From an uncultured bacterium (lineage in GTDB: Bacteria > Oederibacteriota > PGYV01 > Palsa-1178): a stretch of 34,347 nt of DNA. The position numbers and the translations under genes were made by a program. Location of the stretch: positions 1 to 34,347 of the forward strand of contig CALAOR010000073.1 of NCBI GenBank assembly GCA_937889595.1. Direction: 5' to 3'. Numbering within the stretch: position 1 is the first letter of the stretch; the number at the start of each line of letters is the position of its first letter. Under the pieces are notes generated by a model. The model was not told the origin of the DNA. It was given only the letters and a program-made list of their open reading frames with translations, and did no database searches. This document shows, piece after piece, positions 22,063 to 34,272 of this stretch.

Positions 22063-22113
22063 TTGACATTTTTTTTCTTAGTATTAAGATATTTGTTAGG
22101 TGAAGTTAACAAA
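22063..22113 (+). promoter_or_regulatory. Promoter and operator-like inverted repeat for the DtxR-family gene
   Basis: TTGACA (22063-22068) and TAAGAT (22085-22090) are 16 bases apart. TTTGTTA (22092-22098) and TAACAAA (22107-22113) form perfect 7-bp arms around 8 bases, covering the predicted start site. The spacing suits a dimeric metalloregulator, so self-regulation is plausible. Confidence 0.6.
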
Positions 22114-22126
22114 AAGGCGGTGGGAT

Positions 22127-22537
22127 GTGCCGGGCATAATTCTTTCCTCTTCGATGGAAGATTACATAAAAACAATTTACATACTTGAAAACCAGAACAA
22201 GGTTGCGCGGGTATCGGACATAGGAAGGCATTTGTCCGTAAAGAAAGCGAGCGTCGTGGCGGCCGTCGGTTACCTGCAGAAAAACGAGCTCATAAAACAT
22301 GAGCGTTATGGTTTCATCACACTGACGGAAATTGGGAAGGAAATAGCGTCCAATATAGAAAGAAAAAACAAGATGGTTTACGGATTTTTAGCCGATGTCC
22401 TGAAAATAGACCCTGAAAAAGCAAAAAACGAAGCCTGCCTTATAGAGCATTCCTTAAGCGACGAAACAGCCGGGAAGCTCGCCGCATTCATGAAAAACAA
22501 TAAACCCGCGGCTTTAAAAAAAAAGGCAAAAAAATAA
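22127..22537 (+). CDS. DtxR/MntR-family metal-dependent regulator
   Basis: A 136-residue regulator with a winged helix-turn-helix (SSSMEDYIKTIYILE to FITLTEIGKEIA) and a dimerisation helix region, but no C-terminal SH3-like domain, as in MntR. Metal ligands look mixed. The Asp of MEDY matches MntR, while the NEACLIEHSLSDE segment has Cys-x-x-Glu-His as in DtxR. The His expected at the start of the dimerisation helix (KNKMVYG) is Asn. The GTG at 22127, preceded by AAGG at 9 bases, gives the usual N-terminus; the GTG at 22100 lacks a ribosome site and lies inside the operator. A Lys-rich tail ends it. Metal choice is uncertain. Confidence 0.82.
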   Translation: MPGIILSSSMEDYIKTIYILENQNKVARVSDIGRHLSVKKASVVAAVGYLQKNELIKHERYGFITLTEIGKEIASNIERKNKMVYGFLADVLKIDPEKAKNEACLIEHSLSDETAGKLAAFMKNNKPAALKKKAKK

Positions 22538-22582
22538 AAATGCAGGCATGAAAAACCCGGAAGTTTTAATTAACAGGTAAAT

Positions 22583-22611
22583 TTGCTTTTTTGAGTTTCA
22601 TGTGCTATAAT
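22583..22611 (+). promoter_or_regulatory. Promoter of the structured RNA candidate
   Basis: TTGCTT (22583-22588) and TATAAT (22606-22611) are 17 bases apart, predicting a start near 22618. A second TATAAT (22612-22617) follows directly. Confidence 0.55.
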
Positions 22612-22617
22612 TATAAT

Positions 22618-22835
22618 GTAATGCAAGAGAAAGAGAAACAGCGAAGAAGTTGTACTGGAAAGCGGACCAGAAATGGAAAGCGTACCGGGAACAGATATCG
22701 CATGGTAAGTGTAAGGCAGCAGAAAGCGCAATTGCTTTACGGCGGTTTGGACATAATCTGCGGGAACGGGCCTAAAATAAGCCCAAGAGAATCATTCTCC
22801 CCACCGGATTTGTCCAAACCGCTTACCTTTTTGTG
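22618..22835 (+). ncRNA. Structured RNA candidate of unknown family
   Basis: The region downstream of a good promoter encodes no credible protein but folds strongly. Bases 22742-22753 pair perfectly with 22811-22822 (12 bp). The helix continues with 22755-22758 pairing 22807-22810 and 22761-22763 pairing 22804-22806. On its apical loop stand two hairpins, GGGC/GCCC (22768-22784) and GAGAA/TTCTC (22787-22799). A further hairpin (22711-22717 with 22734-22740) abuts the stem on its 5' side. A short T run follows (22828-22832). About 215 nt is in the range of 6S or SRP RNA, but I see no signature of either, nor of tmRNA, RNase P or a common riboswitch. Confidence 0.5.
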
Positions 22836-22869
22836 GGGAAAAAATAATTACCAATTAGGTACTGCCTTA

Positions 22870-22900
22870 ATTAGTCATTAGTAATTAGTCATTAGTAATT
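22870..22900. repeat. Heptamer tandem repeat (ATTAGTM)
   Basis: Four 7-bp units alternate ATTAGTC and ATTAGTA, followed by ATT. The rest of the gap up to the zinc-ribbon gene is AT-rich with no other feature. Confidence 0.8.
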
Positions 22901-22996
22901 TTTTTTTATGATTTTGGTTGATATATAGGGAGAATAAGAGTATATTTACCTGATGCAATCTTATAAAAATCAAATTTAAAATATCCAGGAGGATTT

Positions 22997-23452
22997 ATGA
23001 GCGAAGCAGAAGCGCCTATGTGCCCCAAGTGCGGGGAAAAGATGGTTTTAAGGGAAGGCTATAAGGGGAAATTTTACGGATGTTCAAAATTCCCGGGATG
23101 CAAGGGAACGGTCGACTATGCCGGAGAGCAGGAAAAATGCGCAGCATGCGGATCAAACATGGTTTTAAAGAACGGAAAGAACGGCAGGTTTTATTCCTGT
23201 TCCAAATACCCTGAATGCAAGCAGACAAAAAATTACAAGGAAACATGCCCGAAGTGCGGGTCTGACATGGCAAAGAAAACCGGGCAAAATGGCGATTTCT
23301 GGGGATGCGTAAAATATCCGGAATGCAAGGGCACAAGGAACATAGGGCCGGTAGGCGCGCCCGGGCAGGCAAATACAACAGGTACAGCCAAGACGGTTAA
23401 CACAGAAGATACAACGGATTACTCGGATAAACCGGACGAAAATCCTTTTTAA
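22997..23452 (+). CDS. Stand-alone topoisomerase-type zinc-ribbon protein
   Basis: A 151-residue protein with three tandem C4 zinc fingers of the zf-C4_Topoisom type, as found at the C-terminus of topoisomerase I. Each has the form CxxCG, GKFYGCSKFPGCKG or a close variant. The fingers are followed by a polar Thr/Asn-rich tail without further motifs. Such fingers bind single-stranded DNA or RNA polymerase in TopA. As an independent protein its role is unknown. AGGAGG precedes the ATG by 5 bases. A clear intrinsic terminator follows, so it is probably monocistronic. Confidence 0.88.
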   Translation: MSEAEAPMCPKCGEKMVLREGYKGKFYGCSKFPGCKGTVDYAGEQEKCAACGSNMVLKNGKNGRFYSCSKYPECKQTKNYKETCPKCGSDMAKKTGQNGDFWGCVKYPECKGTRNIGPVGAPGQANTTGTAKTVNTEDTTDYSDKPDENPF

Positions 23453-29855: not shown

Positions 29856-31037
29856 ATGACAAGTGGTATAAAAGCCCTTATTACACCTTCTGTGCTGAAA
29901 TGGGCTAGGGAACAAGCCGGGATGAATATTACAATTGCGGCTGAACAAATCGGTAGGTCAGAAAATGAAATAGATGAATGGGAAAAGGGTGTCAGTCTAC
30001 CTTCACTCGCCCAAGCTAGAAAAATTTCTGAAAAGTACAAACGGGCCCTTGCTGTTTTCTATTTGCCAGAGCCACCAAAAACATATCAAACATTAAGAGA
30101 TTATAGGAGTTTTAATAGTAGCGATGATAAAATATTTAGTCCACAACTATCATTTTTAATTCAAAAAGCTGAACACAGACAAGAATGGTTAAACTCAACA
30201 CTCCTTGAAGAAGGAAAAAGTCCATTAAGTTTCATAGGAAGCGCTTCCATTAGCTCATTGACTATTGAAGTGAGCAAAAATATAAAAAGTGTATTTAAAA
30301 TAACAACTAAAAATCAAAAAGAAAGCAAAACCAGGGACGAAGCATTAAATTTGTGGATTAAAGGTGCAGAAAATTTAGGAATCAACATATGTAGGGAAGG
30401 CAAAATTGACTCAAAAGAATTAAGGGGGTTTGTTATATCTGATAAATTGGCGCCGTTTATATATTTAAATTCAAATGACGCAAAGGCAGCACAATTATTT
30501 ACTTTATTACATGAGGTTGCACATCTTTGGATAGATGCCTCCGGTATATCAAACATAATAATATTTAAGAATAAATTGCCTTCAAAAGATGAAAAAGTTG
30601 AGATATTTTGCAATGAAGTTGCATCTTTAGTGTTACTTGAAAACGAAGAATTTGTTAAAACTTGGAACTTATTACCATTAGATGTTAAATTAAATGAAAA
30701 AATCGAAAAATGTTCATCGTTATTTAAAGTAAGCGAAGAAGTTATTGCACGTAGATTAACAGATTTGGGTATCATTAAAAATGAACAATACGAAGAACTT
30801 CGTGAATATTACAATAAACGATGGGTAGATCTTCAAAAGAAAAAGAAAATCAAAAGACAGAATCAAAAGGGTGGTCCGTCTGTTCATTTATTACAAGTAT
30901 TGAGCAATGGAAAAGTTTTTACTCGAGCCATATTGAATTCATATTCAGCTGACAGAATAACAGGTGTTGATGCATCTAATTATCTAAACGCAAAAATAAA
31001 TCATTTTTATAAGCTGAGTAAATATGCCGGACTATAG
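29856..31037 (+). CDS. Xre-ImmA/IrrE family metallopeptidase (antitoxin candidate)
   Basis: A 393-residue protein with an N-terminal Xre helix-turn-helix (residues 10-65) and a DYRSF segment typical of COG2856. The ImmA/IrrE zinc peptidase domain has HEVAH at residues 219-223 and the third ligand in EIFCNEVAS near residue 254. Such proteins act as regulators that cut partner proteins or as antitoxins. The next gene, for a DUF4411 PIN-like protein, overlaps it by 14 bases. This pairing is a known type of toxin-antitoxin module. GGAGG lies 6 bases before the ATG. Confidence 0.88.
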   Translation: MTSGIKALITPSVLKWAREQAGMNITIAAEQIGRSENEIDEWEKGVSLPSLAQARKISEKYKRALAVFYLPEPPKTYQTLRDYRSFNSSDDKIFSPQLSFLIQKAEHRQEWLNSTLLEEGKSPLSFIGSASISSLTIEVSKNIKSVFKITTKNQKESKTRDEALNLWIKGAENLGINICREGKIDSKELRGFVISDKLAPFIYLNSNDAKAAQLFTLLHEVAHLWIDASGISNIIIFKNKLPSKDEKVEIFCNEVASLVLLENEEFVKTWNLLPLDVKLNEKIEKCSSLFKVSEEVIARRLTDLGIIKNEQYEELREYYNKRWVDLQKKKKIKRQNQKGGPSVHLLQVLSNGKVFTRAILNSYSADRITGVDASNYLNAKINHFYKLSKYAGL

Positions 31038-31545
31038 CATGACCAAAATTGGTAATTTAACGCACAGATATTGTCTTGATACAAATGCATTTATCGAACC
31101 GTGGAATAAGTATTATTCAATCGAAAGCTCACCTGAGTATTGGCAAATATTAGATGAATTGGCACAAAAAAATATAGTTTTTTGTACGGATCAAGTAAAA
31201 AGAGAAATAGAAAGAAATGATGATAATCTTAAAGAATGGTTAAGTAAAAGGTCATATTTTGTAAAAGATGAAACAGAAAAAGTTCAAATAAATGTTCGAA
31301 AAATTTTGGCAAAATTTCCACACTTGATAAGTGTTGGAGCTAATAGATCTATGGCGGACCCATGGGTAATTGCTCATGCTATGTCAGAAAGTGCAACAGT
31401 TGTTAGTAAGGAAATAGCGGTAAATCCAAAACAAAAAACAAACAAAATAAAAATACCAGATGTGTGCAAGGAATTTGATGTTCGGTGCATTAATGATTTT
31501 GTATTTAATAATGAAGTTGGAATAAAATTTAAAGCTGGAATTTGA
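31024..31545 (+). CDS. DUF4411 PIN-like protein (toxin candidate)
   Basis: A 173-residue protein of the DUF4411 family, a PIN-like fold. Typical acidic residues include RYCLDTNAFIEPW (Asp at residue 19), the Glu in VKREIE and the MADPWVIAHA segment. PIN proteins cut RNA using metal held by these acids. Here it is probably the toxin of a pair with the upstream Xre-ImmA protein. Translation may begin at 31024 or at an ATG 15 bases downstream. The target is unknown. Confidence 0.85.
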   Translation: MPDYSMTKIGNLTHRYCLDTNAFIEPWNKYYSIESSPEYWQILDELAQKNIVFCTDQVKREIERNDDNLKEWLSKRSYFVKDETEKVQINVRKILAKFPHLISVGANRSMADPWVIAHAMSESATVVSKEIAVNPKQKTNKIKIPDVCKEFDVRCINDFVFNNEVGIKFKAGI

Positions 31546-33306: not shown

Positions 33307-34272
33307 ATGGATAAAATTAGGACAAAGTATAACGAAAAAATAAATGATTATAAGTCGTTGGAAGTGGAGGCAAAGTACATTTTAGAAAAATTGTTAATTA
33401 AGAATAATGTCAAAATTAATGAAATTTCATCAAGAGTAAAAACAATTGAATCAATTGTTGCAAAGTTAAAATTGAAACAATTTAGTCATTCTATAGATGA
33501 ATTAAATGATATTGTTGGTTTAAGGGTTGTATGTTTGTTTAGATCTGATATAGAAGTCATTGGAGCCATTATAAGAAAAAGTTTTTTAGTTATTAAAGAA
33601 GACAATAAATTGGAAAATTTTGACGTGAGTTCTTTTGGTTATATGTCAGTTCACTTTATTGTAAAATTATCACCAGAGTGTAGCGGGCCAAGATACGACA
33701 ATATAAAAGATATTCATCTTGAGATTCAAATTAGGACAATCTCCATGCATGCATGGGCAACAATCTCGCATTATTTAGATTATAAAGCTGACAACGACGT
33801 ACCAAAAGAAATGCGGAAAGATTTTTTTGCGTTAAGTGGATTGTTCTACGTAGCTGATACGCATTTTGAAAGTTTCTATAATGATAGCAAAACTATAAAA
33901 CTCAAAATCTCTGAAATAATAGATAAGCCTTCTGAGTTAAATAAGCAGGAGGTTAATACTAACAGCTTAGTAGCATATTTTAGAAGTAAGTTTCCGGATA
34001 GAGAACTGAATAATCCTCATAGCACCTCGGAATTAATAGAACAATTATATGAATTGAATTTAACTACCATAGGAGTAATAGATGACTATGTAAACAAAAC
34101 GTGGAATGCTTTTTTAGAATATGAAAGATATAAACCTCCAGGCCGAGAAGGTGATACTGACAGAATTTTTTGGCCAGTAGGCATTATAAGATGTATCTTG
34201 GAACTACAAAGAATTATCAATCTTAACGTAGTAATACCTAAATATATTATTGCAATGATTGAAAAATCTTAG
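33307..34272 (+). CDS. Stand-alone RelA/SpoT-type nucleotide synthetase
   Basis: A 321-residue protein whose first 165 residues form a RelA/SpoT synthetase domain. RVKTIESIVAKL carries R43, K45 and K53. DIVGLRVVC carries D68. FGYMSVHFIV carries Y112 and H116. LEIQIRT carries E139, Q141 and R143, followed by HAWATISH. All key residues look intact, so pyrophosphate transfer is plausible. There is no HD hydrolase domain. The last 150 residues are helical and unrecognised. Relatives act as ppGpp or ppApp synthetases, or as tRNA-modifying toxins (toxSAS), including phage defence. It lies in the AT-rich accessory block. Confidence 0.85.
   Translation: MDKIRTKYNEKINDYKSLEVEAKYILEKLLIKNNVKINEISSRVKTIESIVAKLKLKQFSHSIDELNDIVGLRVVCLFRSDIEVIGAIIRKSFLVIKEDNKLENFDVSSFGYMSVHFIVKLSPECSGPRYDNIKDIHLEIQIRTISMHAWATISHYLDYKADNDVPKEMRKDFFALSGLFYVADTHFESFYNDSKTIKLKISEIIDKPSELNKQEVNTNSLVAYFRSKFPDRELNNPHSTSELIEQLYELNLTTIGVIDDYVNKTWNAFLEYERYKPPGREGDTDRIFWPVGIIRCILELQRIINLNVVIPKYIIAMIEKS

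Follow-up and report, generated by a model that had tools for sequence, protein, structure and literature searches.

Whether the 459-base gap between two protein genes of an uncultured bacterium holds the gene of a structured RNA, and what such an RNA would do, are the questions raised by this locus. The window (the whole stretch of DNA analysed, 34,347 nt) is contig C73 of a 3.4-Mb genome in 93 contigs. The gap runs from a stop codon at 22537 to a start codon at 22997, between the genes of a DtxR/MntR-like iron-dependent repressor (22100–22537) and a topoisomerase C4 zinc-finger protein (22997–23452). An earlier note, made from the sequence alone, had described in this gap a possible new structured RNA and no credible gene. 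The gap is indeed without one, as a 96-codon frame at 22591–22881 has no Pfam match and the equivalent frames are broken in homologues. The analysis has confirmed the observation of a structured RNA and supports its interpretation as a new one; the RNA gene is larger than had been described, with a periodic 5' arm between promoter and hairpin that was absent from that description.

Parts of the predicted RNA gene

Comparison of homologous loci indicates that positions 22579–22832 are an independent small-RNA gene, with a conserved promoter, a 5' arm and a 3' terminator-like hairpin followed by a U-tract. The features are as follows.

22579–22611, plus strand: conserved promoter (alignment of all ten copies)
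22618–22832, plus strand: predicted transcript of about 215 nt (placed from promoter and terminator)
22624–22700, plus strand: 5' arm, a degenerate array of 5–6 nt units, N-A-(A/C)-N-N-G (autocorrelation, shuffles)
22711–22740, plus strand: abutting hairpin, 22711–22718 with 22733–22740 (folds of long-leader copies)
22741–22823, plus strand: conserved 3' hairpin (model R1, ten copies in 7 genomes; covariation)
22741–22753/22811–22823, plus strand: P1 of the 3' hairpin
22755–22760/22805–22810, plus strand: P2 of the 3' hairpin
22762–22764/22800–22802, plus strand: inner GGG/CCC of the 3' hairpin
22768–22771/22781–22784, plus strand: P3 of the 3' hairpin
22787–22799, plus strand: second apical hairpin, window genome only (alignment A5 and individual folds)
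22828–22832, plus strand: U-tract 3' of P1, an intrinsic-terminator-like end (U-rich stretch there in 10/10 copies)
22918–22946, plus strand: candidate sigma-70-like promoter of the downstream topoisomerase zinc-finger gene, TTGATA-17-TATATT (promoter scan only, which found 2 sites against 1.7 expected by chance)

The TATAAT promoter noticed earlier has its -10 element at 22606–22611 and, 17 nt away, a conserved -35 element, TTGCTT, at 22583–22588. An AAATTTG block also belongs to it, and the 17-nt spacer ends in TGTGC (extended -10 TGTG). The promoter (AAATTTG, TTGNTT-17-TATAAT) was recognisable in all ten copies. The predicted transcript has its start inferred 6–7 nt past the -10 element and its end placed at the U-tract; the homologous predicted transcripts measure 115–248 nt. 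A second similar promoter in G000 lies inside coding sequence and was rejected as a chance match; the pattern used was mis-specified and missed the window's own promoter.

Several observations were also made elsewhere in the window. A perfect 14-nt direct repeat, TAATTAGTCATTAG, lies at 22868–22895 just 3' of the RNA gene, and the 26-nt stretch 22855–22880 recurs (96%) elsewhere in the genome, on contig C89, which suggests a dispersed AT-rich repeat. Positions 29856–31545 encode an XRE/ImmA-type protein (HTH_3 and Peptidase_M78) followed, with about ten bases of overlap, by a DUF4411 protein; the two look like a toxin-antitoxin pair. A small RelA/SpoT-domain protein is encoded near the end of the window (33307–34272); in the stretch that contains it, from 29 kb on, two further genes have no Pfam match.

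Conserved pairing and a narrow distribution

The 12-bp perfect stem of the earlier description is present as 12 Watson-Crick pairs (22742–22753 with 22811–22822) with an additional closing G-U pair. The bulged extension (22755–22764 with 22800–22810) and the two apical hairpins reported on it (22768–22784 and 22787–22799) are likewise present in the window, but the hairpin at 22787–22799 is conserved in no homologue; at its position relatives have an unpaired A-rich bulge of roughly 11–15 nt. The 3' strand of the hairpin carries a conserved CCCC(A/U)CCG. The hairpin said to abut the stem (22711–22740) is found and keeps its position in the long-leader copies, but its sequence differs among homologues: it is GUAA..UUAC in genus g1 and an unrelated GCCGG..CCGGC in f3 copy b, and G002, G003 and f3 copy a have at most a weak form of it. 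Folding of 22617–22845 gave a z of -4.2 against dinucleotide shuffles, with 0/200 shuffles equalling it, and the 3' hairpin by itself gave -5.1.

When 20 relatives were searched at the DNA level, the same genus yielded the RNA at 81% identity over most of its length, and fragments turned up in other genera and in another family belonging to the same order. Covariance model R1, built on the hairpin, detected ten copies; they come from 7 of the class's 14 genomes, and the remaining 31 genomes of the phylum (45 in total) gave none. All ten belong to f1 and f3, two families within a single order of candidate division FCPU426; the four f1 genomes carry a single copy each, and the three f3 genomes each carry a pair of diverged paralogues (a and b). 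Because RpoD identity between f1 and f3 is 75–76%, the comparison spans a real evolutionary distance. A retrained model, R2, added nothing beyond chance-level matches, and other families gave matches at chance level only, both with the hairpin model and with a promoter-plus-leader pattern. Families f2 and f5 are as close to the window genome as f3 or closer (RpoD 76–79% to the window's, f3 75–76%), yet the RNA was undetected in them; loss, fast divergence or transfer may account for this.

A pattern scan of 84,980 species gave nine hits, including PMTB01000255 and PLPI01000044 (both candidate division FCPU426), JAJFUW010000087 and JAKQNO010000156. The other five of the nine, in unrelated genera, were without covariance-model confirmation where searched and were set aside. 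JAJFUW010000087.1, a public metagenome-assembled genome labelled 'Spirochaetia bacterium', carries the RNA; it corresponds to G002, which was placed in the window genome's family, and is probably mislabelled.

Alignment A5, which contains the ten sequences, has standard pairs in 92% of cells and two-sided changes in 10 of 26 pairs; it was fitted to the structure from the window sequence and favours that structure somewhat. The covariation score of 0.337 compares with 0.154 +/- 0.019 for column shuffles, none of 500 reaching it, and with at most 0.095 for slid registers. Because relatedness can inflate counts of two-sided changes, a home-made tree-based null was built and used in place of R-scape, in which the inferred substitutions were redistributed over columns, branch by branch. 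Its 500 alignments gave 2.7 +/- 1.4 two-sided pairs (observed, 10) and a score of 0.102 +/- 0.028, and none reached either observed value. Homologues with conserved pairing, which the earlier note had named among the checks on its reading, thus exist in two families, with covariation above all three controls. It is P1 and P2 that carry the two-sided changes; variation is almost lacking in the inner GGG/CCC and in the G-C pairs of P3, which speak neither for nor against the core.

The earlier remark that the architecture matched no recognisable RNA has been borne out with Rfam 15, where neither the window nor the nine homologous loci reached a gathering score; at E<=10 the window had chance matches only, the best at E 0.64, and none was credible. 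The genome's only 6S RNA match is on another contig (C48:33589–33764, 89 bits), and ARAGORN found no tRNA or tmRNA gene in the window. No paper on non-coding RNA in the lineage was found in the literature library searched. The small-RNA family is undescribed, genuine and narrow in distribution, and its one unusual feature is the phased array described below.

Evidence for a stand-alone gene

Pairwise identity, taken block by block, is about 60–90% in the promoter and 57–97% in the hairpin. In the flanks, 5' of the promoter and 3' of the terminator, it is about 45–55%, which is alignment background, both between families and between the congeners G000 and G001. Conservation therefore ends at the edges of promoter and terminator, as expected of an RNA gene. 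By its sequence the locus has what marks a stand-alone bacterial sRNA, namely its own promoter, an intrinsic terminator, conservation between genomes and a non-coding character.

If the locus made no RNA product, it might be just an elaborate intrinsic terminator, or else a hairpin repeat of the dispersed, REP/MITE-like kind; the hairpin with its U-tract and the palindromic P1 would fit this. Such a reading is very improbable: a conserved promoter lies upstream in all copies, genomes hold just one or two copies each, synteny is partly conserved, and the model scores the copies at 54–99 bits against 14–26 bits on the other strand. Phage and plasmid records held nothing similar, and a mobile, phage or plasmid origin was rejected on this ground.

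The genes downstream differ among copies and encode a topoisomerase zinc finger, a FecR-domain protein, an RfbA-like protein, an alpha/beta hydrolase, a MerR-like protein or a histidine kinase. G000 and G003, both of f1, share a downstream order of one gene, an HTH-cupin regulator and an AMP-binding enzyme, which suggests vertical descent. In f3, copy a is followed in all three genomes, after a few tens of bases, by an SBP_bac_3-PAS-histidine-kinase gene (about 90 nt past the hairpin core), and a cis role of this copy is possible. The upstream neighbour of copy a (L034/L035/L036) is phoU-like in two of these genomes; in the third it is response-regulator-like.

These neighbours bear on whether the RNA is a cis-acting leader or attenuator of the downstream gene, possibly a riboswitch, with the conserved motif within the terminator stem. 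The constant position of f3 copy a before the same PAS/histidine-kinase gene would agree with this, as would the conserved asymmetric internal loop of the terminator-like hairpin. The genes differ between families, however, and belong to no one functional class, which speaks against a riboswitch. In addition, the window has a separate promoter-like site 3' of the terminator, and a consistent antiterminator was not seen. As an account of the family a cis-acting leader is quite improbable. Pairing, promoter, terminator-like end, phased array and lineage restriction all come from comparative sequence, from which transcription is presumed, and a trans-acting RNA gene is the likely reading, held with good confidence.

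A phased array in the 5' arm

Seven copies have long leaders, of 46–153 nt, and f3 copy a has one of 32 nt. Long leaders are purine-rich (77–90% over the first 30 nt), and 41–68% of the 5' arm is unpaired. The arm repeats the unit N-A-M-N-N-G (M being A or C), one per 5–6 nt, with 5–17 consecutive units. Autocorrelation at lag 6 peaks in 6/7 long leaders, with z of 2.7–5.7 against dinucleotide shuffles (3.4 in the window). The longest unbroken run of the window comprises 7 units (22654–22694), and runs of 5, 6, 11 and 17 units are found in G001, G005 copy b, G013 copy b and G010 copy b; none of 1000 dinucleotide shuffles reached the run of any of these five. The run of G002 has 3 units, reached by 2% of shuffles, and the leader of G003 has no clear array. 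All runs of at least five units in 280 kb of related sequence lie within this RNA. The unit was defined on the same sequences, which makes the run counts partly circular; the lag-6 test is not circular.

Substitutions between G000 and G001 also follow the unit. Fourteen were counted, in units chosen by eye, with the distribution 6-2-0-2-4-0 over positions 1–6; positions 1, 4 and 5 account for 12 of them and positions 2, 3 and 6 for two (binomial P 0.006). G010 copy b contains 18-nt repeats, which may have arisen by replication slippage.

A short leaderless protein gene, starting from an ATG near the transcription start (MQEKEK...), could be proposed from an 86-codon open frame in the window and from ATGCAAGAG, which stands close to the start in several copies. 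That frame is broken in G001, G003 and G005 copy b, however, G002 lacks the ATG, no Pfam match was obtained, and lag-3 autocorrelation is negative in 6/7 leaders, the window's included (the exception is G002). Such a gene is scarcely credible, and a coding role of the arm was rejected on the broken frames and the missing 3-nt period. Pairing between arm and U-tail was also rejected, since in most copies a leader's own tail did no better than swapped tails or shuffled leaders.

In f3 the two parts of the RNA have diverged differently. The hairpin is 71–76% identical to that of G000 in copy a and 57–60% in copy b; conversely, identity of the leader start to G000 and G001 is 57–79% in copy b and 48–59% in copy a, whose short leader is different from that of f1. 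The pair resembles the outcome of a duplication after which each copy retained one module better, which suggests that the functions of arm and hairpin are separable. If so, these paralogues, in which hairpin and array have been kept by different copies, would be a natural separation of two functional modules.

Proposed function and comparison with known systems

We tentatively propose, at close to even confidence, a stand-alone, lineage-restricted small regulatory RNA whose array sites bind multiple copies of a protein. Transcription would start at the RNA's own conserved promoter and stop at its own hairpin and U-tract. The 5' arm would offer many regularly spaced, degenerate sites of 5–6 nt, to which one RNA-binding protein might bind in several subunits or copies, so that the protein is sequestered or scaffolded. 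Besides terminating transcription, the 3' hairpin (conserved GGG/CCC core, A-rich bulge) would shield the 3' end; it may also serve as a second binding module. Multivalent protein binding as the working mode is a guess, to which we give somewhat less than an even chance.

The main rival reading is base-pairing with mRNA: a trans-acting antisense sRNA whose purine-rich arm pairs with CU-rich mRNA leaders, the repeats being many equivalent pairing sites. The sRNA anatomy with a terminator hairpin would suit it, as would the composition and partly unpaired state of the arm, and f1 and f3 copy b are alike in their first bases past the start (GCAAGAGAAAG). Pairing, however, would need no strict 5–6 nt phasing, and the copies have no single conserved seed. 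Profile searches of the 14 genomes of the class, which could miss a strongly diverged homologue, also found no Hfq (PF17209), CsrA/RsmA (PF02599) or ProQ (PF04352), while the controls gave their signals (for ProQ, that of E. coli); that Hfq and ProQ were not found counts against an antisense RNA. We regard it as plausible but rather unlikely. A multi-site protein binder is favoured over a base-pairing seed because the number of units varies between species and their spacing is constant. Against protein binding it counts that none of these three binders was found in the class, and that repeat arrays can also come from replication slippage. Moreover, the array is not indispensable in every copy, because f3 copy a has lost it and kept the hairpin, and G003 has no clear one.

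A bolder version of the protein-binder proposal, which we consider unlikely, would make this the first known member of a class of phased-array RNAs, in which the array wraps or aligns an oligomeric RNA-binding protein as the lineage's substitute for a Csr-type system (Hfq, CsrA and ProQ not having been found), one copy keeping the hairpin and the other the array after duplication. The locus offers a testable gene for a small RNA from an uncultured phylum where searches of the class found none of these usual sRNA-binding proteins, and its strictly phased repeat arm predicts a specific new RNA-binding protein that may be retrievable with the RNA as bait.

Several known RNAs share part of this anatomy. 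6S RNA (RF00013) is similar in its length of about 200 nt, rod-like hairpin and own promoter, but its model was unmatched here and the ends of the present RNA form no 6S closing stem. Hfq-dependent class II sRNAs of the ChiX type, which combine a purine-rich, A-R-N-like arm with a terminator and U-tail, present a further resemblance; they differ in their dependence on Hfq, which was found in 0/14 genomes here. Candidate RNAs from comparative genomics (e.g., Weinberg 2010, PMC2864571) were discovered and supported in the same way, by covariation and intergenic location, but none of those in Rfam 15 matches this RNA.

The closest parallels concern the array. The TRAP site consists of 11 GAG/UAG repeats 2–3 nt apart (PMC3913778), and the TRAP-binding trp leader of Bacillus likewise places an array of short sites, at a spacing of 5–6 nt, upstream of a terminator hairpin. 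In contrast, the RNA described here stands alone and is not upstream of trp genes, and its longest [GU]AG chains, of 1–3, are not above those of shuffles. CsrB is a sequestering sRNA with many sites for CsrA (PMC7652899). CsrB, CsrC, RsmY and RsmZ resemble the present RNA as stand-alone sRNAs with an intrinsic terminator and many short, degenerate, site-like motifs in variable number. They differ in that CsrA was not found in the class searched here and Rfam gave no match, and in that CsrB-type sites are GGA in hairpin loops, whereas the present unit is N-A-M-N-N-G at a fixed spacing of 5–6 nt; GGAA occurs 1–6 times per leader, counted irrespective of loop placement, and the periodic unit is not GGA-centred. 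Overall, the RNA appears to be a member of neither group on the features tested, and to be like both CsrB and the TRAP site in its logic.
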